Shown in pieces: positions 1,890 to 51,902 of a stretch of 64,000 nucleotides of DNA. The notes below the pieces were generated by a model. It searched no databases and was not told the DNA's origin. It was given only the letters and a program-made list of their open reading frames with translations. The stretch is from Agelas oroides. Lineage: Eukaryota > Porifera > Demospongiae > Agelasida > Agelasidae. Both the position numbers and the translations under genes were made by a program. The stretch covers positions 6,012,627 through 6,076,626 of the forward strand of contig OX422201.1 in assembly GCA_949130485.1 (NCBI GenBank). The letters run 5' to 3'. Positions within the stretch are counted from its first letter, which is position 1. Every line of letters begins with the position of its first letter.

Positions 1890-4800
1890 TTATTCATTCG
1901 CCTCGGCTTTGTTAACTTCCTTTACAAAGTCAGCAAATAGTCTTTTGTTCTTCTCACTATCTAGCAAAACTTTTCCAAGAGTTTGGTAGCTGTATTTGTT
2001 TGGCATTTGCTGCTCCCACTTGCAGAACATCTGGTAGCACTGCTCCTTAATGTCACGTGGATTTTCCTCCACAATTCGGTCAATTTCAAAGTCTTCCAAC
2101 CCCAGAAATCTTGCAATAAACTTCCACTTGACAATCTTTTCCGAGAGCCAAAGGATTACACTTCGCTGTGGAGGCTTATTTGGTAAGAGGGTGGGATCAT
2201 AGCTGGGTTGTGATTGAATAGCCGGGGGTGGGGCTGATGTAGCTGCAGCAGTAGGGGGGTGGGGCTGGGGATAGGGCATCTTCTGAGCAAGGGGAACCAC
2301 CTGCAAGAACGATAATTATGGTTTAATTCTAACAGTTGCTAGACATGTAGGCACATGCTTACCCTAGTTTGATTGGGCACTGTGGCAGCTAAGTACTGCT
2401 GCTGGTAACTGGAAGGCATTGGTTGGTATCTTGGTGTGTTCTGCTTCCAAGTATCCCAGGGGGAAGGGGCCGGTTGATAAGCAGTTGGCTGTCCAATGCT
2501 AGAAGGCACAGTCTTGTAGCCAGGGCGGGGCTTTGACATTGCCTGAAGGAATTTCTCAGGGTTCTCAAACCCTGCCGGACCTAACAGGGCAAAGGAAAAA
2601 AAATTTATGGAAAAGAAACAAATATGCATTTAAATTCTACCATTAAAATTAAATTTCTCGTGTTACACATTGACACCTTACTACAGCTTTCTTTGAGGTT
2701 GTTAGAAAAAGTCCCTCAGCTTCAATTTCAGAACAAGGCTGGTTACCAGCCCTTGCAAGACAAAGATCAAAACAACTTGTCCAAAACATTCTCAACCGCA
2801 GACTCAACCACAGGTGTCTGAGTGTCGCAAGGTCAGGTTTCTTGCTGAACTTCAAAGCTCCTAAATTGCTTCAAAAAAGAGCTTGGATCTCTTCCTCTAA
2901 ATTTCTTTCCAAAGGTTAGCTAATCAAGTCATGTACACTTGATATTACATGAGAAACATTACATGTGCACACTCCAGCAAGCAAAACAGTAAACTGTGTA
3001 TATGTATATGAAACGGCAGCTCTTTGATTGAAGCCATATGCTGTCAGGAAGTATGCTGGGTTGGCTGTAGTGATTCAACAACAGTCAACATGGAATACCA
3101 CAGACTTTTGATGGTAACATTGTATGGGTTTGCTTATTTTCCTAGAATTTAAAAACTTACCTCTTTCATCAGGTTTTGGCAGCATGTGCAACATCCTATC
3201 CCTTGGTTTGTCCAGCTCAACTCTGTTAATACCAGCCATTCGACACACAAGCCTCTCGAATCCCCCGTTCTTGTTGTCATACATGAACCTCCTCGGCTCA
3301 GAGGCTCCGGACAGATTGTAAACAAATCCACCTCTGAAGAGGGAGGGGACACTGTCTCTTCCCTCCCAAGCTCGATCTAGAATCACTGGGATGAACTTGC
3401 TTGTGTTGTTACCCCGAGTTACATCTTGTGCAATCTCATCATAAATAGCATGGCTGTATGCTCGAAACATAAGTGCTCGCTGGTCCACAACATCTTGGCG
3501 AAGGGTTTCTCGGCTAAAAAGTTCATTGAAAGCTGGTGAGCAGACAAGGATGATGAAATTGCAGAGGTGGATCCGGGAAATGTACCACCTCAGCCAGCTT
3601 CTGGGCTCGGTGTCACCCAAATGGAGGTCGGAAACAACATGAAAGCCATGCTGTTCAAGATCAGCAGTGAGAATCGTTATCAATCTCTCATTTCGGCATA
3701 TCTCTGCCCACCTTCTTTGTGGATTGAGGTAAGGGGACTCGGGGTCTGGGGCATAGCAGATAAAGACACTCACACCCTCGCCAAGCTCAGGTAGGTGGCT
3801 CTGGACTTCTTCCTTGCTGTGGAACACTCTTCGTTGCCTCTGCACCCTGTCAGTCATCACTGGAAAGGGAGAAAAGAACTCCTTCATTTTCCACCCTACT
3901 GTTAGCCCTTCTACCCATGTACACACCTGGACTTCCAGCTCTTGTATCACGCTCGGGAGATTGGGGCTGTTTTTGTGGGGGATACCGTCCCTTCTGCTCA
4001 AAACCCTTGTCAAGCTCCACCTCACCTGTACAAAGAGCACAAAGATCTCTACAGACACAAGATCCAGAAACATTCTCGGACCACAACGTAAGGTTATGTC
4101 ACTTCCATGTTTGGTGGTTGCACCATACTAGTCAATTGTGCTTTGAGCTTGACTGTATTTCTACAGGCCTTCAAGAACATGTATGAATAATCAATGAACC
4201 ACATCTCTCTGAAGAAAAAGGCAGGCCTAGATGCTATGCAAAGTCACCCACTACACAGGATGCGTTTCAGACAATACCAAGCCTCATGAGCTGTGTTGGG
4301 GTGACCGGGAGATGGGGCCTACTATCTCATGCACACAATACAGTCAGGCATGAACATGCAGCTACCATGAAAGCAATGCTCACAATAGACAAAGCCTAGT
4401 AACTAAAATTCTGCTATTGATATATTCTCCAGCCAAAAAAACTAACGACAATAGCACAAATTTACACTCTTCTCCAACCAAATGTAGCTATTCTCAAAAA
4501 GATTTGTCATTATGTCAAAACATCTCTCAAAAGTTATCCTGAGCACTGGCTTGTCAATGAAAATTATTAGCATGTACCACATCCACCCAGAGATGTTTGC
4601 TGTAAATTATTAGCATGTACCACATCCACCCAGAGATGTTTGCTGTAAATCATTAGCATGTACCACATCCACCCAGAGATGTTTGCTGTAAATTATTAGC
4701 ATGTACCACATCCACCCAGAGATGTTTGCTGTAAATCATTAGCATGTACCACATCTACTCAGAGATGTTTGCTGTAAATTATTAGCATGTACCACATCCA

Positions 4801-6511
4801 CCCAGAGATGTTTGCTGCGCATGGGACTCCAAAGAAAAACTATGAGTAGTAGTATTATTATTCATGAATTATTCATAACGACATTACCTGTTGTCAGAGG
4901 TTTCATCATGGCCAACGCACCTGGGCAAAGGTAGCAACACAGCATGGTTCAGAAACTGAGACTGTTGCTACACACCACCCTACAGCTCCTAGTCTGCCAA
5001 ACACTAGCTGTTACACCACCCTATACCTCCCACTTCAGCAGACACTAGCTCTCACGGTTGCAACATTACTGCATGCAAGGTGAGTCTATTGTCACAGCAA
5101 GAGGAGATAAAGCTGTTCTAGTCTGGTCCTTAGCAACAACTAGACTGAAGAAACTTCAGCATGAGATTGGAGGACAACTGTGCTTCTGTGATTCCCAACC
5201 TTTTCCCTATCAGATCTCAGCCAACCAGATTTCTCGTTCTAATGAGATTACACCCACAAAATAATAAATGTGGGTGACGGATTTCCTGCAAAGCATGGCT
5301 GAATCCTCATCTGTTTACCACATAACAGTAATTACTATGGCAATCATATTAGTACATATTGATTAGTAGCCTCCAGTCCAGTGAGATCTATGAACAGTAA
5401 TTAGACTAGACACACCTACAAATATACCACTTACCAGCTGCAGCTGCATGTGCAAGACCACTAGCTGTAGAATGAAAGAAGCATAAGCTGATGCCTCCAT
5501 TTCCTGCTTCTCCATCTACAAATGCAACAAAGTTCTCAAGGACTTACCACTAAGGATCAACAGCTTGTTTAGCGTGCTGTAACACACTGGTTGCTGAACA
5601 CATCTGTTCCTTTCTTTGCTGTCCTTTAGGCAGGCTTCGCTTATTCTAACTGTCATTCCGTTCACCTGGGTCATGATCTCGCAAAATGAGAGGGCATAGC
5701 AAAATTGCGGCAACGCGTGAGAGAGCTGTAGTGTGTAAATGCTTCCAATTCCTTGGTACCCAACACACGACATCCCGTCAGCAGCAGAGAAATAAATGCC
5801 AGTGTTTGGAGGGGGATATCCCTGGTTCTTCTCCTCCTGGAACTTCAGATCAATGTGCTCATGAAAAGGAATGCCACTCTTGTCTTCAATGCCTTCATCG
5901 CTGGACCACTCACCACCAACTTCTTCGTAGTTTTCGATGTCAGAATCGTGTCTACAGCTGTCGAAAATGAAGATCTTTGGCTTATCTTTCAGAGCTGAGA
6001 CACACAAGGATTCCACGATAGACTTGTAGTCGATGACGTTTCCATCACACAAAACGACACCACTTGAAACGCCATGACCAGAGTAGTAGAAGAGAAAGCA
6101 GGAGTAGGGTGCAAGACGGGTAGGACTGTTTGTCAGGTCTTCAATGATTTCACGAAGTCTACCAGGTGTGAGGATTACATCGTGACTTCCTTCCTTGATG
6201 CAAGGACTACTGATCTCCCATTTTCCAGGACATACTTTCAGTGACCTAGTCATGAGAATCAAGTCCTTGTAGACACACGTGGTTGGTTCCTCGGTGCCGT
6301 TGCGATCACTTCCAAGCAAGACAGCAAATCCGATTGGCTCTTCAATCTTATATTTCTTGATCCGTCTCTGATCATCAATCAAACGGGAAATATCGATCTT
6401 GTTATTGTAGACGAGAATGTCACTGGCTAATTGAAACTCGTCGACTGGGGTCTCCTGGTTCCTCAGGTGCACAGCCGAGTCAGTGCTCACGTCCATCAGT
6501 TCCTCCACCAT
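1890..6511 (-). CDS. Caspase-like (C14) - SEFIR/TIR-like - Death domain fusion protein
   Basis: Six exons join in phase (784 aa from ATG 6511): 6511-5548 (the exon may extend to an acceptor at 6530), 5464-5435, 4920-4888, 3859-3161, 2580-2363 and 2300-1890 (stop TAA 1890-1892). Residues about 50-315 form a caspase/metacaspase-type C14 fold, with the catalytic His in FYYSGHGVSSG and the Cys in IFIFDSCRHD. Two micro-exons of 30 and 33 nt give short Ala/Gly-rich linkers. The 699-nt exon encodes a SEFIR/TIR-like domain: strand VSVFICYAPD, helix motif WLRWYISRIH, FIILVCSPAF and KFIPVILD. Then come a Pro/Gln-rich linker and a six-helix Death domain from WLSEKIVKWKFIARFLGL to the C-terminus. Death and SEFIR/TIR modules recruit signalling partners, so the protein probably links receptor signalling to proteolysis in the cytoplasm. 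Call of SEFIR versus TIR is tentative. A 43-bp minisatellite sits in intron 3. Confidence 0.72.
4190..4325. repeat. Interspersed repeat, copy 1 (about 130 bp)
   Basis: A segment running from CTCTCTGAAGAAAAAGGCAG to TGAGCTGTGTTGGGGTGACC recurs at about 30125-30245 (ELOB intron) and, more degraded, at about 49310-49400. No coding potential or clear terminal repeats were seen, and the class is unknown. Confidence 0.7.
4560..4817. repeat. 43-bp minisatellite, about 6 units
   Basis: Near-identical 43-bp units (core ATTAGCATGTACCACATCC, then ACCCAGAGATGTTTGCTGT) repeat head to tail, with single-base variants. The array lies in the intron between the 33-nt and 699-nt exons of the caspase-like gene. 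Confidence 0.95.
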
Positions 6512-6814
6512 GATGGGAGGGGGCTCTCCTGTTGAAGAAAAGAGAACAAGAAAAGCAAGTCATTGGTGGGGGGCTCCTAATAGAATCATGTAGCATCCGT
6601 ATACTAATTGAGCATCTCACAAAGTAGGTATCAAAATCTACATAACCACGTGGTGAATACCTGAGTAAAATTGCTACCAAAGCAAACAGAATCCACAGGA
6701 GCTATTTCTTGAGCTTTTCTGGTCGTTTCTGCGGGGCTGCAGTTCGGTGGGGCTTCCTACTGCAACTTTGGAAGGGGAAATCCCGCATCCTGTATGACGT
6801 AATCAAAAGTTAAG

Positions 6815-8031
6815 ATGTGGGGACTTAGCGTGCTTCTTTTTTGCCTCTCTTTCTTCTGCCGGGTGTGTTACGGTGATGATAATGAAGTATCACCTCTGGA
6901 TAATATCGGACCACTACAACCCGGTGAGTGGGCCACAATGGGTATGGGAAGACGTTATTCTAATTAAAGCCCATGCAAGTGTTTACAGGGCAGTTTTTTG
7001 TATTAAAGTCCTCAGAGTCCCACATCGAAGACTCAAATCTAGTGACACTGCTACGTGTAGGTGACCCATGAAACGGTTTCTTATGTAGGCTGCAAAGTAT
7101 TGTTGGAGATACCTTATTTGTGTGTATAGACTGTGGCATGTCACACGAAAATCGGTCTTGCCTAAAAGTGGTCCCCCTGGACCACTTTTGGTTGCTGAAA
7201 ATGGTCCCCCCTTGCCATCAGTGGTCCTAGCAGGACCAAATTTGGCAACCAAAACTGGTCTGGGGGACCATTTTTGGCAGCCAAAAGTGGCCCAAATCAG
7301 GCTAATGAATTCCTGCTATAGCTAATAACTAGCCTCGTACCCAGGCTCTTGGTAGGCCGCCCACCGAGAGCCTGGGTATGAGGCTAGCTAATAACTTTCT
7401 GTCAACGATCCAGGCTTGTGTGGTATGGCCCGGGCCAACTCAAAATTGAAAAGTGCTTCTCCGTGTACATAGTCAACCACGTGTAACTGTACTCTCGCAA
7501 GCCAGACACACTTCTGCAAGAAATAGGAAGGGTCTGGTGAACTGCGTATATAAGCCGTGTCCAGCCGAAATGCAATTAGCTGGATGATGTAATCAGATTT
7601 CAAATAATGTACTCTTGAATTACCTGTTATGGGAAAAGCACACTCCCTGAGGAGTACAGTCGAAGTGTTTTTACAGCTTCTGCAGTAGCAGAAAAGATGT
7701 CCTAGCTCTCTTTTGCCGTTTTCAAGACTGCTCAAACAGTGATGTAATGTGTCATGTGACAAAATACTGCAATGTGATTGGACCACACTGTACAGTGTGG
7801 TGGGACATGGCTTGTATATGGATTTCACCAGACCCTTCGGAAGTGGGTCTGGCTCGCAAGAAGACTAGTGCAACTGCAGCAATGTAATAACATGCACTGG
7901 AGTGTCATAAGCCTCTGACTATCTTCTCCACAGGCTTGACAGCTGGCATTGCTGTTGGAACATTCGCAGTGATGGTCATACTCGCTATAGTTGTCTACTG
8001 GCCGACACCAAGACAGAGGACTGTAGGATGA
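6815..8031 (+). CDS. Putative 68-residue single-pass membrane protein, two exons
   Basis: Exon 1 (6815-6923) starts with an ATG and a strongly hydrophobic signal-like segment (MWGLSVLLFCLSFFC, then RVCYG). It ends at a good donor (GTGAGT at 6924). Exon 2 (7934-8031) follows a CAG acceptor and joins in phase. It encodes a second hydrophobic stretch (GIAVGTFAVMVILAIVVYW), then a short basic tail and TGA at 8029-8031. The predicted product is a very small type I membrane protein with a roughly 20-residue luminal or extracellular part. No homologue is recognised. It is divergent from the caspase-like gene (about 300 bp between start codons), so they may share a promoter. The intron holds a palindromic element. 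Further exons cannot be excluded. Confidence 0.5.
7150..7292. repeat. Internally repeated palindromic segment
   Basis: Short blocks reading as TGGTCC..CC and GGACCA alternate on both strands (e.g. TGGTCCCCCTGGACCACTTT and the reverse form near 7255-7290). The segment can fold on itself. It lies in the intron of the small membrane protein gene. Confidence 0.6.
7330..7386. mobile_element. Palindromic micro-MITE, family A, with 9-bp target duplication
   Basis: A 57-bp element starts TAGCCTCGTACCCAGGCTC and ends with the near-complement GAGCCTGGGTATGAGGCTA. Exact 9-bp direct repeats GCTAATAAC lie at 7321-7329 and 7387-7395. Confidence 0.88.
7490..7867. mobile_element. Palindromic MITE, family B (378 bp)
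   Basis: Inverted arms of about 65 bp (outer part CTCGCAAGCCAGAC, inner part GGAAGGGTCTGGTGAACT) flank a middle of about 240 bp. The flanks are GTGTAACTG (7481-7489) and GTGCAACTG (7868-7876), a 9-bp duplication with one mismatch. A one-sided relative lies at about 32676-32840. Confidence 0.75.
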
Positions 8032-8133
8032 CACAAAACGTACACATTACTGCCCTTCCCATGAACAAGAGTCTGTCACATGTATCTTGTTTTTAGCACC
8101 AGTCACGAATGAATCATTTGGTGATACAGATTG

Positions 8134-30999: not shown

Positions 31000-33560
31000 G
31001 TTGGTAGCTATACTTGTGTCCTTGTAGACATCACCCCCCCAGTCCTGCGTAGCCAGACTCTCACCAGAGAAAGGGATGGAGTCTTGTGTAGCCAGACTCT
31101 CCCTCCCAGAAAGAGTCTGGCTACACAAGACTATACCCTCCTTTCCCTGAACAATCCAGGGAATGTATATTTATACTGCTTTTGCAGCCCCATTCCCAAG
31201 CTCCCTCTCTGTTCTGTTCTTGCAGTACAGTTACCTGATTTAGACTATACAGGACTCCAGAAGGAATGTTACAGAACACGAAAACTACAGTGGAACCTCT
31301 CTAATACAGACACCTCTGAAATATATAAGGACACCTGGTTAATCAGGACACTTGACTGAGTCCCAACTTCATATAAATACATATTATTCTTCCCCTGAAA
31401 TAAGGACACCTCACTAATTAGGACAATTGTTTTGGTCCCAAGGGTACATGCAAGACCATGGTCCTTAAAAGTTCATTGTGTGACAATCTGAAGCATTCTT
31501 GTGTTAATCCATGTATGTATGCTGTGAATGTCTTAATTAACGCTCCATTGTACTGGATTTCAGCTGTGGTGGAGTCCAGCTGGATGTTTATCATACAGTG
31601 GAACCTCTCTATATACGCCTAGCCTCAGTCTCGTTCCCAGGCCCGAAGAGGAGGAGGAGAAAGGGTTCGGGCCAAGGCCAGCAAGGGCACATGATGACGT
31701 CATTAATCGTAGTTGTTATAATGTGGCCTATGGTCGGGGTGCAAATTTCTATCTGACCTTTTGCAAATGTAAGAAAAACACTCAAAAATAATGACATTGT
31801 ATTGACTCTGCATGCATTGCACAATGCTTATACCAGTGTATCTACATATTATCAGCATTCTCTTTTGCAGCTACATACTAGTAAATATTCTCACAAGCCA
31901 CAAAGAGAGTAAGGGTCTGGTAGTGCTGTAACTGACAAATTGTCTCCAAAAAAAAAGATTATTAACTGCGCCATTAAATCTGATTCATGACAATAAGTAC
32001 AATCTAAAAAGAGAGCATGGATCTGATTGTAGCGACAATTGTGACTTTGCAAATGATGCACCATTCATTTCCACCTACATCAAATAATGACTTGAAAGAA
32101 AAGACTTATCTAATGCATGTGTGTGTGTCTCCAAGGGTCAAGTAGAAAAGGACAGCAGTTTGGTGTGACAGTAGAAACTTTCAAAGGTTCATATCAGTAA
32201 AATAAGCGCATACTTTTCCCAGTAGATACAATTTTATCCGGAGGGGGAAAGAATGCATGCCATTTCACCAGCAGACTTTTCCATCATCTTTGGATCACTT
32301 TACAGAGGGGGGCAGTCTGGGAGATTTTCCTGCCAGGAAAGGCACCAAGATTTTCACATCGCTCTCTTCTGCCTAGGTAAATAATTTTCAAATCTCCCAG
32401 CCTTTGTCCTTACATACTGGCCTTGTGTGCAAACTGACTATTCATTGAGCTGTAGAGTAGCTATATACTCCTCCATTATTGGATCACTTCCTGTTTGCAT
32501 AACAGGAGAAGAAAGCCTGGGAAATCTTGTCATGTGTAGTGATGTCATGTAACATCAGGCAGACAGAAGGTAGTCTCATGAAGGGGAACTTGACATTGAC
32601 CAGTCTTGAGTAGCAAACAAGATGTGTTGATGCTGCCTTGCGAATGTTGTGGACTCCAGAGTTTGGACAGGCATGGTCTTGCGAGCCAGACCCACTTCTG
32701 CAAAAAAGGGAAGGGTCTGGTGAACTATGTATACAAGCCATATCCGCTGCTCTGTACAGTGTGGTCCAATCATGCTGCAATACTTTGGCACATGACACAT
32801 TATAACGTTTTAGTAGCAATAACAGTCTGGATAACAATGACAAAAACCTAACACAAGATTGTTCACAGGGTTGGGCACGGCGATCCGTGTGCCTACCTCA
32901 TGTTACATGACATCACCACACATGAAGAGATCTCCCATCCCACCACATTTGCATACTATTAAGCAATCAAATGCTGGAGACAATGGTCAGGAAATGAGGC
33001 TACATTCAGGGGGATCACAAGTCAATAAGCTAATTTTGTACGGTCACACTGTCAAGCTCTCTCATTTACTCTGAGATCAAGCCGCCAAGAGGTTGACCAA
33101 GAAATGTCCTTTGTCAACCACTACACTAGTTCAATCATTGTTGCAGACTTAGCATCTATTGTTCACCTTTCATGCTGTATGCATGGAAGCCTGCATCCCA
33201 TATCCATATCCATTGTAGGTTCATGGGTGCAACTCCACCCACTCACGCATGCGCAGTTCGTTAGCACATCGTGCAGTAGTCTCGTGACCAGCCGGAAAGA
33301 AATTTGCGGTCGGGCCCGGGGCCGGATCGTCTCAAGCAGTGTAATTAAATGACACACAAATTAATAGGGGGTCAGATAGCCAAAAATTTACCGCCATGGT
33401 CGCACGCGGGCACGGTTCATCTTGAATGCAGAACGCGGTAGTCTCGCAGGCCAGAGTCTCACCGTCTCACGGGGAAGAGTTCCGTGAGAGCCTGGCCTGC
33501 AAGACTAGAGCTGCAGCTCTTTTCACCGGGAAGCTAAAATAGATAATATACAGGTTGATG
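31000..33560. other. Gene-poor interval with repeats
   Basis: No convincing gene was seen. It holds a TAGCCAGACTCTC palindrome at about 31050-31125. Two direct TACAGTGGAACCTCTCTA motifs, like pogo/Tigger-type transposon ends, lie at about 31288 and 31592. A one-sided family B fragment lies at 32676-32840, and a TAGTCTCGCAGGCC...GGCCTGCAAGACTA palindrome at about 33448-33509. Confidence 0.55.
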
Positions 33561-33663
33561 CGTGATGCATAATTTTTCAGGTTTGTATTTCCCCGGTATA
33601 TCCGGCATACCGGGTATTTCACGCTTCTACTGTGTATGGTTGCGGTTCAACGTTGAAGAGATC

Positions 33664-35199
33664 ATGGCAGGTCGGCAACTCCAATACGTCTGCATTATTA
33701 CACTAACTATAGTACTAGTGAACCTGATTGTAGCTACAGTATACTACAGTAGTCATAGGCTAAATATTCGACCTTCCAGTAATAGACTTTCATCAGACAG
33801 CAAGAGCTACATGCTTTCGCTTCACTATGCGGAGCAGCTTACAAATGCAGTGGGTCACTACATTGAGTTTATTAACTTGGTTGCTGATTGGAACTTCACT
33901 GGAGTTGAACCATACATCCACAACTCACGACTGTTTGGACTACGCTACTTTCTCCCTACTACAAGTTTCTTCAGGTGCAGCCTTCTTTTCAACACTTCAT
34001 CTCTTAACACTGACCTGAGTGGTTGTCTTAAGAGGGCCAATGACACAGAAAAAGGCAGGCCAATCTTATTTGAACCATTCAGTGAGTTTTTGAGTCATTC
34101 TCATAGATATGTTGTCATTGTCTACTTCACTAAGCACATGGCTGTACTTTCAAGGGAGATTCATAGAGCCATGGATTCCAGTGTAAACTTTGGAGATGAA
34201 CCTATTTGTGATTGTACCGATACTGCAAGAAATAAAGGCATGTCTCAACAGGTGGAGAAACTGCTTGATCGAGAGTTTGTTTTGGAGAGAACTTCCAATC
34301 CTGATTGGTTATCCTTCAAAGATCATTTTACAGTGGTACAGGCGTTTTGTGTAAATAAAAGTACTCCAATTTCACTGGTTCAATTGAGAGACTATGTTCT
34401 CAGTCACATTGGTCATGACACCAGTGGTAATAAACTTCAAGTGAGCATTCTGTTCGTAAGTTGGCAGGGAGTATACACACATACATTTACTGATCCTATC
34501 ACTATGAGGAAATGCAGGATTGATGGAGCACAGTTAGTCTACAGCGATAAGGTGTTGGACACTGCCAATCAGTTCATCCATTCCCTCGGTCTCCATGAAT
34601 CATCATATGTCTCAGTTCAGATTCGATTTGAGCATGTGTTCATGCATCATTTGCCCGAAGCTATTTACCAGTGTTGTATGAAAAAGTTGAACATTCTTCT
34701 GGGTATGGTTCAACACAACTACAACATAACCTCTAAGAGAACATTGCTCATGAAAGATTACGGACCTTATGGTAGTGATACCTGCCGATATGAGGGTGCA
34801 TACAGAGCACTCAGCTTATGCAAAGAAAAATCCTCCAAACTTCTTTCCCAGCTCAACGTAACTTTGGTAGAGTTCGATCCGGTGGCTTTTGATGCACCGG
34901 TTAACTCGGGGTTTGTGTCACTTATAGAAGCAAGCAGTCTGTTCAGTGGCAGAGCATTGGTAACTATCGGAGGAGGTGCCTACCAAAACTATCTTGTGCA
35001 GCGTTTTATGAAGTGGCATCGTAATGACTACCCAAAGAATATCCACTATCACTTACAATGTCAAATGTCACAGCAGATGGTAAATGGACTAGTACTCTCT
35101 GAAGATATTTGTGAGGATAAACACTTCAATGGTACGCAAAATGTATCCCTTCAGCATCAACCAGCACTGCTAATCAACAACCACATCACTGGCAACTAA
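33664..35199 (+). CDS. Intronless type II membrane protein, glycosyltransferase-like, copy 1 (511 aa)
   Basis: A single open frame begins MAGRQLQYV, with one N-terminal membrane anchor (about residues 9-29) and a large luminal part with many NxS/T sites and cysteines. The frame is open further upstream, but the ATG at 33664 is chosen because the paralogue at 50409 has its ATG at the same place. The C-terminal half has SYVSVQIRFEHVF, a DYGPYGS loop, FVSLIEASSLFSG and VTIGGGAYQNYLV. This layout is loosely reminiscent of O-fucosyltransferase-type GT-B enzymes (HxR motif, late Ser/Gly-rich donor loop), but the family assignment is weak. A probable AATAAA lies at 35324-35329. It faces a PARP-like copy downstream. 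Confidence 0.6.
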   Translation: MAGRQLQYVCIITLTIVLVNLIVATVYYSSHRLNIRPSSNRLSSDSKSYMLSLHYAEQLTNAVGHYIEFINLVADWNFTGVEPYIHNSRLFGLRYFLPTTSFFRCSLLFNTSSLNTDLSGCLKRANDTEKGRPILFEPFSEFLSHSHRYVVIVYFTKHMAVLSREIHRAMDSSVNFGDEPICDCTDTARNKGMSQQVEKLLDREFVLERTSNPDWLSFKDHFTVVQAFCVNKSTPISLVQLRDYVLSHIGHDTSGNKLQVSILFVSWQGVYTHTFTDPITMRKCRIDGAQLVYSDKVLDTANQFIHSLGLHESSYVSVQIRFEHVFMHHLPEAIYQCCMKKLNILLGMVQHNYNITSKRTLLMKDYGPYGSDTCRYEGAYRALSLCKEKSSKLLSQLNVTLVEFDPVAFDAPVNSGFVSLIEASSLFSGRALVTIGGGAYQNYLVQRFMKWHRNDYPKNIHYHLQCQMSQQMVNGLVLSEDICEDKHFNGTQNVSLQHQPALLINNHITGN

Positions 35200-36555: not shown

Positions 36556-37803
36556 GTCCTGTGTTTGTTATATATGTGATGAGGTAGGCAGGGTATGCTT
36601 TTTCGTGATCATAGATGACAAATATGTCTGATCCATTAGCGTGTCCCTTCACGCTGTCATATAGTTCATCTTCAAAATGAGGACTTTAGCAAGAATCATC
36701 TGCTTCCTAGTTCCAGTGGTATAGGCATAATTGTTAGAGTAGCTTGCCTTCACAGCAAAATACGTGCCTGTGCCCCACATCCCACGAGAGCAGAAAAATC
36801 CCTGCTCTGATTTGAAGATCTTCTCCGGCGGTGTGCTACTGGTTCCATGGAATAAGTCTTTCTATTTATGATTCCCTCGTACTTTTCTGACATTCACTGC
36901 TTGGAGAAGTGGTACTTTTCCCATAACCACTGGTTTTGGATTCGTTCTACACGGACAACCTGAGCTGATGGCAGTGTCTTGTGAACTCGGGAGTTAATGT
37001 CATTCCATTCTTTGCTTCCTGAACTCACAGGTTTTAATACCACTTTCTCTGTTTGGGCATCCCAGTGACTAGGGACCTCAACAGTTCTGCCTAAGGCCCT
37101 TGGAGTAGATCTTTTGGCGAGAACTTTTTCTTTATAGGCTAGCATTTCCTGTCTAACTTGAAGGGAAACTTTGTCAACATACCCTTGTGCTCCCTTTACC
37201 TCAAATGTGTCTCCAGTCATGTTTGCGGCCACAAGATATTGGCTAGTGGTTTGCAGGAGTGATAACTGAAGTGTTTCATCACTCTCGGGTGGTAGTTGGT
37301 GTGACACAGGCACCACATCAACCATTAGTTTACTTTCAAACTCTTTCACAGCCAGCTGAAGGTTTGGTTTGAGGCCACGAACTTGAAAGCTGAGCTCACG
37401 ATCAGGTTTAGCCTCATTCCCAGGCGTGGAGGAACGAGGCTAGATCAGGTTCTGTTGTCAGTGTGGCATCTTCGTTTGGTGCAAGCTGTCTTTGGATGGG
37501 AGACGTGTGCTTTGTGGTAACATTTGTTTGTTCCATGTTGTTAAAGTCAAATGTGTACACTCTTCCATTGATGGTGAACATGCTGGTATTCTCAATTTCT
37601 GCGGAGTCTTGGGAATTGTAGGGAGTAAACTGCTTGTGGTCATCTTGGTAGTGCCACGTGGGTGTACAAGTTTGACGTTTGATGCTGCGTTGATTGCCAG
37701 ACTTGGCATTTGTTTGAGTCATATTGACAAAATCGATTGTGTATTTTGTTATACCCAGTTTGGTAGGTACTTTGCACTGAAACTGGGATTTTGGTGACAC
37801 TGT
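36556..37803 (-). pseudogene. Degraded PARP/ART gene copy A
   Basis: The sequence matches the WWE1 tail through ART domain of the intact copies at 42.1 and 61.4 kb. It is broken by a deletion of about 88 bp after 36680, which removes part of the catalytic C-terminus. A small deletion near 36790, a frameshift near 36862 and a 34-bp palindromic insertion at 37409-37442 add to the damage. Two open pieces remain (37349-36894 and 37800-37414). The 5' domains (RRMs, KH-like) are absent. At 37803 it abuts the 3' tail of a membrane-protein gene copy. Confidence 0.85.
37409..37442. mobile_element. 34-bp family A palindrome inserted in PARP pseudogene, with empty-site paralogues
   Basis: TAGCCTCATTCCCAGG at the left and GGAACGAGGCTA at the right. 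The duplication GATCAGGTT lies at 37400-37408 and 37443-37451. The paralogues at 39.67 and 43.04 kb have one GATCAGGTT and no insert, which proves insertion. Confidence 0.93.
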
Positions 37804-38060
37804 GAATGCTTATCAACAACCACATCACTGGCAACTAAACATGCATGTATGTTGGGGGTGTGCTACACATGTGGGGATTATGGTGGTTTGCTCTATTTCC
37901 ACAAAAATGCAAACAAATGAATATCACAGACAAACTGAAGGTATTTTAGTATCTTTAGTAATTAGAGGGCAAATAAAAGCTGGCCCTAGCTAGCCTTGTT
38001 CCTCCACCTCTTGCTTCCAGGAAGCCATATATACTATATACAGGTGGGGAGGCATTGGGA
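37804..38060 (+). pseudogene. 3' tail of a third membrane-protein gene copy
   Basis: From ATCAACAACCACATCACTGG through the stop codon and about 230 bp of 3' flank (including AATAAA), this matches the ends of the copies at 35.17 and 40.66 kb. All upstream coding sequence is missing. Confidence 0.85.
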
Positions 38061-38721
38061 ACAAGACTATGTAACATGGACAAAACTCAAATCAGTCACA
38101 TGGTGGGGTCGGGCATGAAACTAACCTTTTCCTTGGTTGTGAAGAGGGGTTGCTTAACAGAGTTGCTGAATAGGTCTTGCACTGCATGATTCTTGTTACC
38201 AGGTCCCCGCCCAGTTTTTTCATCGACGGATGAAAAGCTGGATGGGGGCCTGGGCAAAGTATGAGAGGTAGCTATCAAGTGCACCTCTATTTTTTTTTTG
38301 GGGGGGGGGGGGCGGGCAGTATTGCTGTGGATCTACAAATACCTATGTAATGTTTTGTAACCGAGTATAGGTCGATTCAAGAGGATTATTCGAGAGATAT
38401 GAGAGTGGTACAGACAGAGAGCATGCAGAGCATAGACCATACAACTGCTACGCATGTGTGCATAAATAATTCATATAAAGATGAGATAATGCAATAACGG
38501 CACAATCATCACAACTTACATGCAGCCAAGCTCTCGACTCATTGACTACCGGTATACACTTGAGAGCTCCCCAAATTAAGTTTAGAGAATCTATACATGT
38601 GTCATGTACCTTTAGAAAAGCTTACGGAACATTCATTGCTTTTGTGAGCTTATATATGTACACAGCACATGACTTACAAGAGTAAAGCAATAGGAATGTC
38701 ACTAACTTCAAAGTATATGCA

Positions 38722-39984
38722 CTAAAAAAGTCCTGTGTTTGTTATATATGTGATGAGGTAGGCAGGGTACGCTTTTTCGTGATCATAAATGACAAATATG
38801 TCTGATCCATTAGTGTGTCCCTTCACGCTATCATATAGTTCATCTTCAAAAGTGTTTCTGCTACCACCTAATTTAGATCGAGATTTGACAGGAGGTTTCT
38901 TGAGAGAGCTGTCTGGGTTACACTGACATGTCTCACCAGTGAGGACTTTAGCAAGAATCATCTGCTTCCTAGTTCCAGTGGTATAGGCATAATTGTTAGA
39001 GTAGCTTGCCTTCACAGCAAAATACGTGCCTGTGCCCCACATCCCACGAAAGCAGAAACAAAAATCAAATCCCTGCTCTGCTTTGAAGATCTTCTCCGGC
39101 GGTGTGCTACTGGTGCCATGGAATAAATCTTTCTCATTTATGATTCCCTCGTACTTTTCTGACATTCGCTGCTTGGAGAAGTGGTACTTTTCCCATAGCC
39201 ACTGGTTTTGGATTCGTTCTACACGGACAACCTGAGCTGATGGCAGTGTCTCATGAACTCGGGAGTTAATGTCATTCCATTCTTTGCTTCCTGAACTCAC
39301 AGGTTTTAATACCACTTTCTCTGTTTGGGCATCCCAGTGGCTAGGGACCTCAACAGTTCTGCCTAAGGCCCTTGGAGTAGATCTTTTGGCGAGAACTTTT
39401 TCTTTATAGGCTAGCATTTCCTGTCTAACTTGAAGGGAAACTTTGTCAACATACCCTTGCATTCCCTTTACCTCAAATGTGTCTCCAGTCATGTTTGCAG
39501 CCACAAGATATTGGCTAGTGGTTTGCAGGAGTGATAACTGAAGTGTTTCATCACTCTCAGGTGGTAGTTGGTGTGACACAGGCACTACATCAACCATCAG
39601 TTCACTTTCAAACTCTTTCACAGCCACATGAAGGTTTGGTTTGAGGCCACGAACTTGAAAGCTGAGCTCACGATCAGGTTCTGTTGTCAGTGTGGCATCT
39701 TCGTTTGGTGCAAGCTGTCTTTGGATGGGAGACGTGTGCTTTGTGTTAACATTTGTTTGTTCCATGTTGTTAAAGTCAAATGTGTACACTCTTCCATTGA
39801 TGGTGAACATGCTGGTATTATGAGATTTGTGCATTTTCTCAATTTCTGCGGAGTCTTGGGAATTGTAGGGAACTTCATGCTTGTGGTCATCTTGATAGTG
39901 CCACGTGGGTGCACAAGTATCGGCGGCGTACCAAGCATTGCACGGTTGCGGTTCAGTGTTGAAGAAATTATGAGATTTGTGCAT
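38722..39984 (-). pseudogene. 5'-truncated PARP/ART copy B (WWE2 - KH-like - ART), open frame of 420 codons
   Basis: The frame is intact from WWE2 (CAPTWHYQDDHKH) to the C-terminus and keeps the ART His (LFHGT), Tyr (GTYFAVKASYS) and the Ile of DIFVIYDHEK, so the catalytic fold could be made. RRM, first KH-like and WWE1 sequences are gone. The first 15 codons come from a mosaic junction (39917-39984) that includes upstream sequence of the membrane-protein gene. With no native promoter it is probably dead, but expression cannot be excluded. Confidence 0.7.
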
Positions 39985-39992
39985 TTTCTCAA

Positions 39993-40685
39993 TTTGAATG
40001 CAGGATCAATGGAGCACAGTTAGTCTACAGCGATAAGGTGTTGGACACTGCCAATCAGTTCATCCATTCCCTCGGTCTCCATGAATCATCATATGTCTCA
40101 GTTCACATTCGATTTGGGCATGTGTTCATGCATCATTTGCCCGAAGCTATTTACCAGTGTTGTATGAAGAAGCTGAACATTCTTCTGGGTATGGTTCAAC
40201 ACAACTACAACATAACCTCTAAGAGAACATTGCTCGTGAAAGATTACGGACCTTATGGTACTGATACCTGTAAGTATGATGGTGCATACAGAGCACTCAG
40301 CTTGTGCAAAGAAAAGTCCTCCAAACTTCTCTCTCAGCTCAATGTAACTTTGGCGGAGTTTGATCCAGTGGCTTTTGATGCACCAGTTAACTCGGGGTTT
40401 GTATCACTTGTAGAAGCAAGCAGTCTGTTCAGTGGCAGAGCATTGATAACTATCGGAGGAGGTGCCTACCAAAGCTATCTAGTGCAGCGTTTTATGAAGT
40501 GGCATCGTAATGACTACTCAAAGAATATCCACTATCACTTACAGTGTCAAATGTCACAGCAGATGGTAAATGGACAAGTACTCTCTGAAGATATTTGTGA
40601 CGATAAACACTTCAATGGTACGCAAAATGTATCCCTTCAGCATCAACCAGCACTGCTAATCAACAACCACATCACTGGCAACTAA
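39993..40685 (+). pseudogene. 5'-truncated membrane-protein gene copy (C-terminal 230 codons)
   Basis: This matches residues about 285-511 of the copy at 33.66 kb with few changes (SYVSVHIRFGHVF, ALITIGGGAYQSYLV). It starts abruptly inside the coding sequence, after a mosaic junction. A separate 54-bp piece of the gene's 5' end (GGCGGCGTACCAAGCATTGC onwards, up to its ATG) lies just upstream at 39917-39970. The membrane anchor is absent. Confidence 0.85.
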
Positions 40686-42088
40686 ACATGCATGTATGTT
40701 GGGGGTGTGCTACACATGTGGGGATTATCAGCAGTATGGTGGTTTGCTCTATTTCCACAAGAATGCAAACAAATGAATATCACAGACAAACTGAAGGTAT
40801 TTTAGTATTTTTAGAAATTAGAGAGCAAATAAAAGCTGGCCCTAGCTAACCTTGTTCCTCCACCTCTCGCTTCCAGTAAGCCATATACTGGTGGTGGGGA
40901 AGGCTTTGAGAACAAGACTAGGACTAGGTCAGATCAGCCTAAACATGGACAAAAGCCTACAAACTGAGATAAGGGCTTGTTTACCATTTGTTGTTATTGT
41001 GCAAAAAATATTAGAATTTTAAAGCTGGAGACACGGAAGGCTGGGAATACACAGTCATGTGATCAGTTGCAAGTGTTCTCAGCAAGATGCACTGTTGAGG
41101 AGCTAAAAGATCCTGCTTCTGAACATCTGATATTTGTTGACGTAGCTACCTAGTCTTATGCCCAGACCCCACACAGTAAAACATTCAATCATAATTTGGT
41201 CATCTCAGTTGCATGCCTGTTGTGTACGTGACACATCATAAAGTTCAAATGTGTAGTTGAGAAGCTCTCCCCCTAGTTAAATTAGTTCAGAAGGTCTGTG
41301 AGTCAGCATTTCTGGTGAGGTTTGGTGGGTATATGGGACATTACATCTCATATATTCTTTGGTCTCACACATCTGCCCCTGGAAGAGTTCCTTGGTTGCA
41401 TGGTTACAGGAATTAATGTAGCCAAATAGGTCGTCTGAAAGAAGAGACTGGTTTAACTAAGGAAGAAGCTCCACAGTGGATCAAATTTCAAGAAAACCTA
41501 ATTTTGTAGTGCTTCTTGGATAGTAGTCACACTGAGATGACCTAAATAATTATGTGGTTGAAGTAACCCAAGTGTTTTTACAGTGCACCCTCTCACCCTT
41601 GAGAGGTGGGATCTGATCTGGGTATGAAACTGACTAGTAGCTGTCTTCAAGTGTCCTGGGTATGAAGAAAGGTTATTTAACAGGGTTGTTGATTAGGTTA
41701 ACTGTAATTTTGCACCGCATGATTCTTGTTACTAGGTCCCCATCCAGTTTTTTTTTTTGAGTGTTGAAAAGCTGTATGGAGGCCTGGGCAAAGTATGAGA
41801 GATATCAAGTGAACCTCTATTTTGGGGGGCGGTATTGCTGTGGATCTACAAATACTTACCTAGCTGCAGCCAAGCTTGTGAGTTATAGTAAGTGGCCTAG
41901 ACCGGTATACACTTGAGAGCTCCCCAAATTAAGTTTAGAGAATCTATACATGTGTCATGATTGTACCTTTAGAAAAGCTTGCGGAACATTCATTGCTTTT
42001 GTGAGCTTATATATCTACACAGCACATGACTTACAAGAGTAAGGCAATAAGAATGCCACAGCATTGACTTAACTTCAAAGTGTATGCA

Positions 42089-45000
42089 CTAAAAAAGTCC
42101 TGCATTTGTTATATATGTGATGAGGTAGGCAGGGTATGCTTTTTCGTGATCATAGATGACAAATATGTCTGATCCATTAGTGTGTCCCTTCACGCTGTCA
42201 TATAGTTCATCTTCAAAAGTGTTTCTGCTACCACCTAGTTTAGATCGAGATTTAACAGGAGGCTTCTTGAGAGAGCTGTCTGGGTTACACTGACATGTCT
42301 CACCAGTGAGGACTTTAGCAAGAATCATCTGCTTCCTAGTTCCAGTGGTATAGGCATAATTGTTAGAGTAGCTTGCATTCATAGCAAAATACGTGCCTGT
42401 GCCCCACATCCCACGAAAGCAGAAACGAAAATCAAATCCCTGCTCTGACTTGAAGATTTTCCCCGGCGGTGTGGTACTGGTGCCATGGAATAAATCTTTC
42501 TCATTTGTGATTCCCTCGTACTTTTCTGACATTCGCTGCTTGGAGAAGTGGTACTTTTCCCATAACCACTGGTTTTGGATTCGATCTACATGGATAACCT
42601 GAGCTGATGGCAGTGTCTCGTGAACTCGGGAGTTAATGTCATTCCATTCTTTGCTTCCTGAACTCACAGGTTTTAATACCACTTTCTCTGTTTGGGCATC
42701 CCAGTGGCTAGGGACCTCAACAGTTCTGCCTAAGGCCCTTGGAGTAGATCTTTTGGCGAGAACTTTTTCTTTATAGGCTAGCATTTCCTGTCTAACTTGA
42801 AGGGAAACTTTGTCAACATACCCTTGCATTCCCTTTACCTCGAATGTGTCTCCAGTCATGTTTGCAGCCACAAGATATTGGCTAGTGGTTTGCAGGAGTG
42901 ATAACTGAAGTGTTTCATCACTCTCTGGTGGTAGTTGGTGTGACACAGGCACTACATCAACCATCAGTTCACTTTCAAACTCTTTCACAGCCACATTAAG
43001 GTTTGGTTTGAGGCCACGAACTTGAAAGCTGAGCTCACGATCAGGTTCTGTTGTCAGTGTGGCATCTTCGTTTGGTGCAAGCTGTCTTTGGATGGGAGAC
43101 GTGTGCTTTGTGTTAACATTTGTTTGTTCCATGTTGTTAAAGTCGAATGTGTACACTCTTCCATTGATGGTGAGCATGCTGGTATTGTGAGATTTGTGCA
43201 TTTTCTCAATTTCTGCGGAGTCTTGGGAATTGTAGGGAACTTCATGCTTGTGGTCATCTTGGTAGTGCCACGTGGGTGTACAAGTTTGACGTTTGATGCT
43301 GCGCTGATTGCCAGACTTGGTATTTGTTTGAGTCATATTGACAAAGTTAATCATGTATTTGGTTATACCTTGTTTGGTAGCCAGTTTGCACTGAAACTTG
43401 CATTTTGGTGACACTGCAAATGCTTTGCTGAGTGTAGTGCAGATCTCAGGTGAGTATGGAGTATACCCACCTTCGTCATCTTCCCACAGCCAGAGATACT
43501 CTGTGTTCATGGCTGCTGAGGGGGTGGTAGACGTCATATAGTTGGAGAAGAAACTGACACCTGGAATTTCAGTGGTACTGCTAAACACATCAGAAACTTT
43601 GCTTCCAAACTCAGCAATACCAAGTGGACACTGTGTGGACTGGTCCATGAGACAAAATTCCACACCATACTTCTCTTCGATTAATGCTGCTTGTTTCAAC
43701 ATTTCTTGGTTTTGGAGGAGAGGCACTACTAGACATGGTAGAGAGAAAGACTGCTGATCGATTTCCGCCATAACTTTGTCGGCAAGTAGCCTAATACAAT
43801 TTTCTGCTGCAGCTACATTTGTTGGATCTCCCCAGAGATTGAATCCATTGCCTGACTTCATTCGCTTCACTGTCACTTGTTGAGTCTGGTAAATCTTCTC
43901 AAGCTGGTCCTGATACTTCTCAGAAGCAAGCAGCTTGGCTACAAGAGAGTCACAGGCAAAACGTTTGCACTCGTGTGTTGAACTCCCACCACCAACTTTC
44001 TTCTCTGTGACTTTTACGTGAACCCTTGTCCCCTTTATTATGGTGTCATTCAACTTGCATGCAGCATGCGCCTCTTTGGAACTCTGAAAATTAACGTAGG
44101 CATACTTTGGTGTACCAGAGCGAACAATGGGCTTTTCACTGATTTTACCAAACTGGCTAAAGATCTCCTCAATATCTTCACCAGTAAGATCTCCATGAAT
44201 GGAGACTTTCACTGATTTTGACTGCAGACTGGTGGCTTGGGAAGGAGCTGGCCTTTGGGGTGTGCATAGTTCTTTTTGCGATTGGAGTTGAAAAGGTGAT
44301 GTTGAAGGTTTTGCAGGTGAGAAGAATGGTGAGGTGAGACTGGAATAGCCCCATGGATATCCACTTAAATCTTGGTGACATTCCCATGGAGATATTTTCT
44401 CAGGCCTAGCGGGGGAGAAGGGTGGGGTACATCGTCCATGTGGTAATGAGGAGCCGAAAGGTGGGGCATATAGTTCATGTGGTAGTGGAAGGTTAAAAGG
44501 TGGGGTACATCGTCCATGTGGTAATGAGGAGCCGAAAGGTGGGGCATATAGTTCATGTGGCACTGGAAGGCTAAAAGGTGGGGTATGTCGTCCATGTGGT
44601 AATGAGGAATCAAGGGGTGGGGTTTGTCGTCCATGTGGTAATGAGGAATCAAGGGGTGGGGTTTGTCTTCCATAGGGTGGACTACATCGGCCATAGGGTG
44701 GACTACATCGGCCATAGGGTGGACTACATCGGTCATAGGATGGACTACATTGGTCATAGGATGGACTATATCGGCCATAGGATGGATTATATCGGCCATA
44801 GGGTGGAGTAAATCGGCCATAGGGTGGAGTACATCGGCCATATGGCAATGGCGAGCTTACTGTTGCCTTGCCAGAGGAATGAAGCTTTACTTTGACTATT
44901 TTTCCATCTATTCTTAATCCATCTAGCTGCTTTTCTGCCTGCTCAGCATCACTAGGATTGTCATAGTTGACATAGGCATAGTTGAAGACTCCATCAGTTT

Positions 45001-45398
45001 GGTTTACTTTCACACTCAAAACAACAACTCCAGGTGAGAAACAAAAGATACCTTTGAGTGTATCCTCAGTTGTGTGTTTTGAGAGGTTGGTGACTTTGAC
45101 TGTGTACTCCCCTGATGAGGAAGAGGAGTGACTACTAGCCCATTGGTCCTGCACTTTGACACTAATTTGTACACCGGCAAAACATTTTCCATTCATGTCA
45201 TCTGCAGCTGCCTGAGCATCAGTTGGAGAAGAATAGTTGATGAATGCATAATTTTCAGTGTCTCCAGAACAAAGGCGTATGCTTGCAAGTGTTTCATACT
45301 TGCCAAATGCTGACTCAAGCTTGGATTCGGAAACAGATTGTGATAAGTGGTTGACCTTTACTCCATAGGTTATGTTTCTAAATTTTCTTTTTCTTCGC
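42089..45398 (-). CDS. PARP10/14-like mono-ADP-ribosyltransferase with three RRMs, KH-like and two WWE domains
   Basis: One large 3' exon (acceptor CTATAG, first base 45398; stop at 42089). The upstream exon with the start codon was not found. In order: basic RRKRKFR; RRM1 (45380-45170, ASIRLCSGD / NYAFINYSSP); RRM2 (45112-44876, NYAYVNYDNP); proline-rich PYGRCSPPYGR-type repeats (44850-44400); RRM3 (44215-43990, KYAYVNFQSS); KH-like region; WWE1 (about 43506-43300, YLWLWEDDEGG); WWE2 (about 43272-43075, TWHYQDDHK); KH-like; ART domain (42745-42090). The triad reads H (LFHGT, codon 42485-42487), Y (GTYFAMNASYS) and I (DIFVIYDHEK), the H-Y-I type of mono-ADP-ribosylating PARPs. WWE domains bind ADP-ribose chains. 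No macrodomain is visible. It faces the copy at 40.7 kb. Confidence 0.85.
44400..44850 (-). repeat. Coding tandem repeat of Pro/Tyr/Gly/Arg-rich motif
   Basis: About 8 units of 24 bp (GGCCATAGGGTGGACTACAT on the plus strand) are followed by longer units encoding SLPHGRCTPPF-like motifs. The repeat stays in frame inside the PARP exon and makes a low-complexity linker between RRM2 and RRM3. Confidence 0.9.
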
Positions 45399-46029
45399 CT
45401 ATAGAATGAAGTAGTAACACTTCAAGCTAGGTGGCTTTTAGACACATAAACATACATTCTCATTCCAACTAAATGTGGGAGTCTACACTTTTGTCATATG
45501 CGAGCAAATGGAAGTGGCCATGAGAGCATCGTGGAATGATACTTGCTATCATATAATTTACCAGTGGAAGTCGATAGTATTTGCGAGTAAACTAACCCCA
45601 AATGGTCCTTTTTTCAGCTTGTACACTGAACCTGTCACATAATGCACTGTAAAGATGTTACCACTGGCCTTGTTCTCTAGCCCCTCTCAGCTTTCTTTCA
45701 CTATTGCAGCAAGGTACTGCAAGTGATGGAAAGTCAGGTTGGGCCTGGGATTGAGGCTAGGTTGCCACCTGAGTTGAGTACACTTGTGTATACTAGCCAA
45801 CTAGAATGAATCAATGGTACTTTGTCTTTCACAGTTTCAGGTCATTGTGTTTGTAATATGCCTAGTTAGCACAGTGATAAACTATATTCTCCAAACATAC
45901 CAAGGGTGTTCAGAATAATGTGAGTGTTAGCTGCATGTGTGTTTGGCATAACAAAATGCAAAGGTGTGCCCAATGTACGTACCAACTCTGTAGTATTGTA
46001 GCATCGTTCCCAGGGTTTTACCACTGTCC

Positions 46030-49760: not shown

Positions 49761-50408
49761 CCCCCCCCCCCCCACCCCAAGTCAGGGAATGCAAGTGTAT
49801 ACTGTTTTTTTAGCCTTGTTTGCAAGCTCCCACCCATGCTGTCCCTTGCAGTACAGTTACCTGACTGACACACAGTGCTCCAGAAGGAACACTCCAGAAC
49901 ATGAAACCTATGATAAATATGCAGGTGGACCTCCACAACAGCTGCAATTTCAGTACAATAGAATGTTAATTAAGAGTAACCATATAGTCATGTGTATACA
50001 AATGACCTACCCTCGTTTCCAGGCCTTCCTTGCCTCCAGTTATTGATTGGTTGCAGTATGCTCCACCAGGGGAAAAGGCCTGGGAACATACATTACCTTG
50101 ACCTGTTAAGAAACAAAGGGTAGGGTAGCTATAGGGTCAGGCAGGGATTTTTTTCCAGACACGCCAGCAGAAACGTGTGTGGGAGGATACAGGGTGAGGT
50201 ACAGTTAGTACCTCTGATTAGTTGTTGGAATGAGGCTACACATGACCATGGTTACAATTAGGAAGCTATACTATGGATGTTAATAAGAAGCTACTACTAT
50301 GGATACAAGTGTGCAGTTGATACATGATAAATATGCAAATTATTTAATTTTCTACATATCGGCGGCGTACCAAGCATTGCACGGTTGCGGTTCAGTGTTG
50401 AAGAAATT

Positions 50409-51902
50409 ATGGCAGATCGGCAACTCCAATGTGTCTATATTATAACGCTAACCTTAGTACTAGTGAACCTGATTGTGGCTACAATATACTACAGCAATCA
50501 TAGGCTAAGTATTCAACCCTCCAGTAATAGACCCAGGTCTTCTGGCCCCAAGAGCTACATGCTTTCGCTTCACTATGCGGAGCAGCTTACAAATGCAGTG
50601 AGTCACTACTTTGAGTTTATTAATTTGGTTGCTGATTGGAACCTCACTGGAGTTGAACCATACATCTACAACTCACGACTGTTTGGACTACGCTACTTTC
50701 TCCCTACTACAAGTTTCTTCAAATGCAGCCTTCTTTTGAACACTTCGTCTCTTAACACTGAGCTGAGTGGTTGTCTTAAGAGGGACAATGACACAGAAAA
50801 AGGCAGGCCAATCTTATTTGAACCATTCAGTGAGTTTTTGAGTCGTTCTCATAGATATGTTGTCATTGTCTACTTCACTAAGCACATGGCTGTACTTTCA
50901 ACGGAGATTCATAGAGCCATGGATTCCAGTGTAAACTTTGGAGATGAACCTGTTTGTGATTGTACCGATACTGCAAGAAATAAAAGCATGTCTCGACAGG
51001 TAGAGAAACTGCTTGATCGAGAGTTTGTTTTGGAGAGAACTTCCAATCCTGATTGGCTATCATCCAAATCTCAACCCAAAGATAATTTTACAGTGGTACA
51101 GGCGTTTTGTGTAAATAAAAGTACTCCAATTTCACTGGTTCAGTTGAGAGATTATGTTCTCAGTCACATTGGTCATGACACCAGTGGTAATAAACTACAA
51201 GTGAGCATTCTGTTCATAAGTTGGCAGGGAAAGTTTACACACACATTTACTGATCCTATCACTATGGGGAAATGCAAGATCAATGGAGCACAGTTAGTCT
51301 ACAGCGATAAGGTGTTGGACACTGCCAATCAGTTCATCCATTCCCTCAGTCCCCATAAATCATCATATGTCTCAGTTCATATTCGATTTGGGCATGTGTT
51401 TAAGGATCCAAAGCCGGATCCTGAAGCCGTTTACCAGTGTTGTATGAAGAAGTTGAACGTTCTTCTTGGTATGGTTCAACAGAAGTACAATATAACCTCT
51501 AAGAGAACACTGCTCATGAAAGACTTTGGACCTTATGGTAGTGATGCATGCCTCTATGAAGGTTCTTTCAGAGAGGTCAGCATATGCAAAAACAAATCCT
51601 CCAAACTTCTCTCCCAGCTCAATGTAACTTTGGCAGAGTTTGATCCAGTGGCTTTTGATGCACCAGTTAACTCGGGGTTTGTGTCACTTGTAGAAGCAAG
51701 CAGTCTGTTCAGTGGCAGAGCATTGATAACTATCGGAGGAGGTGCCTACCAAGGCTATCTTGTGGGGCATTTCCTCAAACAGCATCAAGATTCAGACAAC
51801 CCCAATGCTGCAAACAAGCCCCATTATCATTTGTCATGTGAAAGATCAATATCACAGCAGACAGTGAATGGACTAGTATTTCCAGATAATGTTTGTGCAT
51901 AG
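50409..51902 (+). CDS. Intronless type II membrane protein, glycosyltransferase-like, copy 2 (497 aa)
   Basis: A full-length paralogue of the 33664-35199 gene: MADRQLQCV, the same anchor (about residues 9-29), the same cysteine and N-glycosylation pattern, SYVSVHIRFGHVF, DFGPYGS, FVSLVEASSLFSG and ITIGGGAYQGYLV. It differs by a two-residue-longer segment near SKSQPKDNF, a diverged loop (FKDPKPDPEAVY) and a distinct C-terminus (HYHLSCERSISQQ, ending VFPDNVCA). About 90 bp upstream of the ATG also resembles copy 1 and the mosaic piece at 39917, supporting the chosen start. No partner PARP follows within 9 kb. Confidence 0.62.
   Translation: MADRQLQCVYIITLTLVLVNLIVATIYYSNHRLSIQPSSNRPRSSGPKSYMLSLHYAEQLTNAVSHYFEFINLVADWNLTGVEPYIYNSRLFGLRYFLPTTSFFKCSLLLNTSSLNTELSGCLKRDNDTEKGRPILFEPFSEFLSRSHRYVVIVYFTKHMAVLSTEIHRAMDSSVNFGDEPVCDCTDTARNKSMSRQVEKLLDREFVLERTSNPDWLSSKSQPKDNFTVVQAFCVNKSTPISLVQLRDYVLSHIGHDTSGNKLQVSILFISWQGKFTHTFTDPITMGKCKINGAQLVYSDKVLDTANQFIHSLSPHKSSYVSVHIRFGHVFKDPKPDPEAVYQCCMKKLNVLLGMVQQKYNITSKRTLLMKDFGPYGSDACLYEGSFREVSICKNKSSKLLSQLNVTLAEFDPVAFDAPVNSGFVSLVEASSLFSGRALITIGGGAYQGYLVGHFLKQHQDSDNPNAANKPHYHLSCERSISQQTVNGLVFPDNVCA

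Follow-up and report, generated by a model that had tools for sequence, protein, structure and literature searches.

A predicted sponge protein combining a divergent caspase-fold protease with SEFIR and Death domains

Introduction

Can a signaling adaptor and the protease that it would control be encoded as one polypeptide? This question is raised by a locus of the sponge Agelas oroides, in a 64,000-nucleotide stretch of contig OX422201.1 (positions 6,012,627 to 6,076,626; here, the window). In the 259-Mb, 141-contig assembly used for all own-genome searches, the window corresponds to C19:6012627-6076626. On its minus strand, from 6511 to 1890, a splice-site model on the genomic sequence gives an 817-residue open frame from seven coding exons, in which a Peptidase_C14 protease is followed by a SEFIR and a Death domain. 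Our preferred reading, held tentatively and at somewhat less than an even chance, is that of a single-chain signaling protease: an ACT1-like SEFIR and Death adaptor of the IL-17-receptor type carrying a divergent caspase-fold protease at its N-terminus.

Domain content of the predicted protein

All three domains scored over their Pfam cut-offs in one open frame and in the order of the original prediction. The C14 protease domain (residues 118-318, 60.5 bits in the whole protein and 63.1 bits for exon 1 alone, cut-off 21.4) precedes both signaling domains, as had been proposed, with SEFIR at residues 427-558 (34.9 bits, cut-off 23) and Death at residues 739-795 (40.5 bits, cut-off 22.6). The second domain had been called SEFIR/TIR-like, and the SEFIR half of that description stands; exon 5 is also matched by the PADLOC bSEFIR model (E 1.5e-6). 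The TIR half fell, with TIR_2 at 14.4 bits under a cut-off of 28, and on this profile score a TIR domain or a TIR adaptor such as MyD88 was rejected. A SEFIR rather than a TIR domain points to IL-17-receptor-type rather than Toll-type signaling.

Pfam detected no Ig domain in the 817-residue protein, and no transmembrane or extracellular part was seen in it. A sequence search of the SEFIR exon against solved chains gave no match at E up to 10, and NCBIfam gave no match for exons 1 and 7 and a single meaningless match for exon 5. Structure prediction without an alignment returned mean predicted local distance difference test (pLDDT) values of 29.5 for exon 1 and 37.4 for exon 5, which are unusable and speak neither for nor against a SEFIR fold.

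Catalytic residues and substrate pocket

The alignment of the window C14 domain covered human caspases 3 and 7 and, from the same genome, 11 canonical caspase-like and 8 divergent C14 domains. The His and Cys motifs noted in the original prediction are kept in both alignment modes: H146 (codon 6074..6076, minus strand, motif YYSGHG) and C186 (codon 5954..5956, minus strand, motif FDSCRH) fall in the catalytic columns. In caspase-3 the P1 aspartate is held by R64, Q161 and R207. Both modes place T77, D184 and G251 at these positions in the window protease, and the predicted dissimilarity to vertebrate caspases thus extends to all three. At the same three positions the canonical rows carry Arg (8/13), Gln (13/13) and Arg (11/13), and the divergent group carries Leu (8/8), Asp (7/8) and Glu (6/8). 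On these data and those of the next section, we take it to be a diverged protease of the caspase fold whose pocket does not resemble that of caspases.

Asp184 lies two residues before the catalytic Cys186. Acidic pockets accompany a basic P1 residue in metacaspases, orthocaspases and MALT1 (PMC8283722; this and the other papers given by PMC number are cited from the portions available), so that a basic P1 would be expected here, and we consider such a preference more likely than one for Asp. The protease contains both D184 and D83, yet D83 is common to caspases too. The third pocket position, G251, is a Gly and not acidic; this argues against a full MALT1-like pocket.

Relatives of the protease domain

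Two trees were built from the 32 own-genome C14 matches, with 21 in the first and 20 in the second, which omitted a metacaspase-like row. The 11 matches left out of both comprise L006 (stop), L008 (like L007 by place and score), one unfetched sequence and eight fragments. In the second tree the window C14 domain groups with the divergent C14 domains outside the canonical caspases (support 100/99); in the first this grouping includes the metacaspase-like row (98/99).

Several results weigh against this placement, and with it against our preferred reading of the protease. The window domain sits on a very long branch. The approximately unbiased (AU) test did not firmly reject a tree that places it with the sponge caspases (p 0.07), nor did it reject a divergent group excluding it (p 0.57), and it may or may not nest within that group. 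The nearest solved chains in a direct search with exon 1 are caspases, matched weakly (Dronc, E 0.003), and no MALT1 chain is among the 29 solved matches of this exon.

Two identities were considered and rejected. For a canonical caspase the Asp pocket is lacking (T77, D184, G251), with the tree position itself not firm; for a MALT1 orthologue Pfam found no Ig domain, and no MALT1 was among the 29 solved chains matched by exon 1.

The long branch, the only partly acidic pocket and the Tyr found at the catalytic Cys position in four other C14 genes of the genome would also suit a pseudo-protease scaffold, with a C14 domain that has lost its cleaving activity in a protein that merely assembles partners. 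With His146, Cys186 and their motifs intact and the frame open, we regard this as distinctly improbable.

The four genes with Tyr at this position are caspase-like open reading frames (ORFs) at C1:4.79-5.05 Mb (L020, L021, L022 and L025; motif QAYLG), and in two of these the catalytic His is replaced by Arg as well; from their sequences all four are likely inactive and perhaps regulatory.

Six of the divergent C14 ORFs, with a changed pocket, are clustered at C5:5.47-5.54 Mb (L013-L018; C5:5467500-5544500). At four of these loci (L013, L015, L016 and L017) ORFs downstream of the C14 ORF were scanned for double-stranded-RNA-binding motifs; three of the six ORFs scanned scored over the Pfam cut-off, at L013, L015 and L016 and not at L017. 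The cluster could possibly encode protease-dsRNA-sensor genes, and the pairing of a protease with a downstream partner domain may be habitual in the divergent C14 lineage, the ORFs so far being only neighbors. No second C14-SEFIR-Death gene was found in the own-genome search, whose first pass was lossy, and among viral contigs exon 1 produced 10 pattern matches, none of which is a relative.

SEFIR and Death domains and IL-17-type genes in the genome

The own-genome SEFIR search returned three places and missed the SEFIR domain of the window itself, so SEFIR counts are lower bounds; the genome holds at least four SEFIR genes including that of the window. One is a separate SEFIR-Death gene on contig C12 (L048:7666-8100 and L049:709-2656, plus strand). 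Its SEFIR exon is flanked by phase-1 introns (by eye), as is that of the window. A CARD exon (38.1 bits) lies upstream with matching phase, again by eye, and the C12 gene may therefore encode a CARD-SEFIR-Death protein. The other two are receptor-like SEFIR genes on contigs C15, where a fibronectin match fell under the cut-off, and C7. In a comparison of the four SEFIR domains, the window domain matched that of the ACT1-like C12 gene best of the three others (E 1.3e-8), with E 1.9 to one receptor-like domain and no match to the other. A candidate ligand gene is also present, as an IL-17-domain ORF on contig C14 (a contig label, not the peptidase family; L050:1991-2689, minus strand; C14:927502-927771) scored 51.7 and 49.7 bits against a cut-off of 24.

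The Death domain departs from this picture and counts against an ACT1-like origin of the whole adaptor half. Nine other own-genome Death loci (up to 48 bits) are nearer to it than that of C12, which ranked tenth of 11 compared (24.6% identity, 29.3 bits), and C12 is missing from the 53 matches of the own-genome search. Its best match among solved structures is the Death domain of TNFR1 (E 3e-7). Kinship with the Death domain of the C12 adaptor was rejected on the nine nearer loci among the 11 compared. Since Death domains are numerous in this genome (47 of the 53 matches fall in the Death region), a swap of this part of the protein, or its rapid change, may account for the difference.

An alternative is a death-receptor-type protein, with a Death domain that binds to TNFR1- or FADD-like partners, a protease that drives cell death and SEFIR as a secondary contact. 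The TNFR1 match fits such a protein, as does a Death domain nearer to others in the genome than to that of the C12 adaptor. On the other side, the 817 residues show no transmembrane or extracellular part, SEFIR is a receptor-adaptor domain of IL-17 signaling, and the window protease lacks the pocket in which apoptotic caspases bind Asp. We therefore judge this alternative quite unlikely, while a cell-death role for the fusion protein is possible.

Comparison with known systems

The preferred reading, an ACT1-like adaptor carrying a protease, rests in part on known layouts. A Death domain (DD) combined with SEFIR is the ACT1 layout in most non-amniote lineages (PMC7190641). The window protein resembles this form of the ACT1/ACTL-1 (CIKS) adaptors of IL-17 receptors in having SEFIR and Death over cut-off and no visible transmembrane part, and its SEFIR domain is nearest, of the three compared, to that of the ACT1-like C12 gene; it differs in its N-terminal C14 protease, and its Death domain is not nearest to that of C12. 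A SEFIR-DD protein described as 'MyD88-like' in placozoans, another early-branching animal group, has the same two domains and no described protease (PMC6321704). Because SEFIR plus Death is already a known adaptor layout (PMC7190641, PMC6321704), the protease would be the addition.

With the type 1 paracaspase MALT1/MALT-1 the window protein shares the caspase fold, an Asp two positions upstream of the catalytic Cys and a Death domain in the same chain. MALT1 has an N-terminal Death domain and Ig domains before its protease, whereas the window order is C14-SEFIR-Death, with Death C-terminal and SEFIR in place of the Ig domains. The type 2 paracaspases of sponges, placozoans and ctenophores are similar in their non-caspase pocket and early-branching hosts; by description they consist of the protease domain only, unlike the window protein with its SEFIR and Death domains (PMC5978004). 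The TNFR-caspase and LRR-caspase hybrids of amphioxus likewise place a recognition or adaptor module and a caspase-fold protease in one chain, but theirs are QACxG caspases, and SEFIR is not reported among them in the available portion of PMC2575513.

The open-access literature searched yielded no account of a protease fused to SEFIR. Neither the 20 papers listed out of 27 in one search nor the 20 out of 133 in another combined a SEFIR term with a caspase-domain term, and the available portions of four papers that mention both SEFIR and caspases describe no such fusion (PMC12909245, PMC6321704, PMC11797021, PMC13142454). One of these, a sponge study, counts one or two SEFIR sequences and in its available portion does not give their layout (PMC12909245), so that a C14-SEFIR-Death fusion may exist unremarked. 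Domain-shuffled immune hybrids are already known, and what appears to be new here is the join of protease and SEFIR. Known immune hybrids would thereby gain a member whose protease has an altered substrate pocket.

Proposed function

As an adaptor-protease, the predicted protein would use its SEFIR domain to dock on the SEFIR tail of an IL-17-type receptor once that is activated, and its Death domain would bring in further molecules of the protein along with other partners that carry Death domains. The resulting crowding would pair the protease domains and switch them on. Crowding-driven pairing and activation is established for initiator caspases and MALT1. The active protease would cleave after basic residues, perhaps including those of its own polybasic linker RVQRQRR (residues 380-386), a candidate self-cleavage site at which cutting would separate protease from adaptor. 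An inflammatory or cell-fate response might follow, this last step being speculative.

A bolder version would give the sponge an IL-17 signalosome in a single chain. In C. elegans ACTL-1, which is ACT1-like, directly binds the paracaspase MALT-1, its functional partner, and both act in IL-17 signaling (PMC7190641). A fusion of an ACT1-like adaptor and a caspase-fold protease is how a shortcut of this complex would be expected to look, and ligand-like, receptor-like and second adaptor genes are present in the genome. We consider it rather doubtful that the window protein is the worm complex as one polypeptide. If it were, a complex of separate proteins in other animals may be one molecule here, protease-coupled IL-17 signaling would reach to the base of animals, and the fusion would be a natural 'Rosetta stone' for such signaling. 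The IL-17-domain ORF and the SEFIR genes of this genome bear on the existence of IL-17 signaling in sponges; in the available portion of PMC8353272, no IL-17 gene was found in Amphimedon, and one Amphimedon IL-17-domain entry in Pfam was noted.

Exon structure and the case for a single gene

All seven coding exons lie on the minus strand. Exon 1 (5548..6511) encodes residues 1-321 and the first base of codon 322, including the start codon and the entire C14 domain, and ends in a phase-1 donor (GTAAGTCC). Two tentative micro-exons follow, of 30 nt (exon 2, 5435..5464, from its splice sites) and 33 nt (exon 3, 4888..4920, placed by splice sites alone), and then the 99-nt exon 4 (3927..4025), also from its splice sites; all three are of phase 1-1. 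Exon 5 (3161..3859) encodes the RVQRQRR motif and the SEFIR domain (about 3707-3312), exon 6 (2363..2580) a linker rich by composition in Pro, Gln and Tyr, and exon 7 (1890..2300) the remaining linker, the Death domain (about 2129-1959) and the stop codon. Five of the six introns are of phase 1 and the last is of phase 0. Six exons and 784 residues had been predicted, which our model of seven exons and 817 residues does not bear out; the loss of exon 4 (4025-3927, 33 residues) would leave exactly 784 and keep the frame. The first coding exon presumably begins with an untranslated 5' end at 6512..6528, behind an acceptor ending at 6529 (TTTTCTTCAACAG, score 5.5), and a further exon upstream of this acceptor is likely.

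We infer from the genomic sequence one transcript containing all seven exons, and a single gene spanning exon 1 to exon 7 is quite probable. The six donors are all within the top 11 of the 344 GTs in the stretch and the six acceptors all within the top 16 of its 399 AGs, by a generic splice score and in a ranking that is partly circular, the sites having first been picked by eye. Neither AATAAA nor ATTAAA occurs on the minus strand between the start codon (6511) and 2327.

Some features weigh against one transcript. Only one of the two micro-exons passed the candidate scan: exon 2 is the only symmetric candidate in its stretch at the thresholds used (shuffled mean 0.025), and the exon 3 donor (score 3.7) falls under the threshold. 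Reading through the exon 1 donor, with the C14 domain already complete, meets a stop at 5516, and exon 5 opens with an in-frame ATG. The stop, the ATG and the weak micro-exons would be explained by two adjacent same-strand genes, one for a stand-alone divergent C14 protease that consists of exon 1 extended to the 5516 stop, the other for a SEFIR-Death adaptor beginning at the exon 5 ATG. We think this unlikely: exon 1 has a good phase-1 donor at its end, the downstream acceptors are in phase, and neither polyadenylation hexamer is present from 6511 to 2327. Moreover, in three of the eight divergent C14 ORFs (L016-L018) the domain is likewise followed at once by a phase-1 GTAAG donor; the other five have no such site. 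Such a donor had been tried as a feature of all divergent relatives and was rejected at this count.

Other features of the window and genome

The predicted fusion gene is flanked on both sides by plus-strand genes. A Cupin_8/JmjC-type gene (2-1720; 93.1 bits for 2-727) converges on it, and a small two-exon gene drawn by eye (6803-8040), with a signal peptide and then a transmembrane stretch, diverges from it. Farther along the window, repeated RRM-WWE-PARP genes resembling PARP14 occupy 36897-45421 and 61368-63998 on the minus strand, with complete open frames at 42092-45421 and 61368-63998 and partial copies between. Related long ORFs on the plus strand (33559-35196, 39963-40682 and 50331-51899) are interleaved with the PARP copies, and one of them has a weak O-fucosyltransferase match under the cut-off. 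The genome itself is very probably that of a demosponge: among six cathepsin-like short stretches, three have Ser for the catalytic Cys, as QCGASY or HCGASY, the mark of silicateins, which in turn mark sponges.

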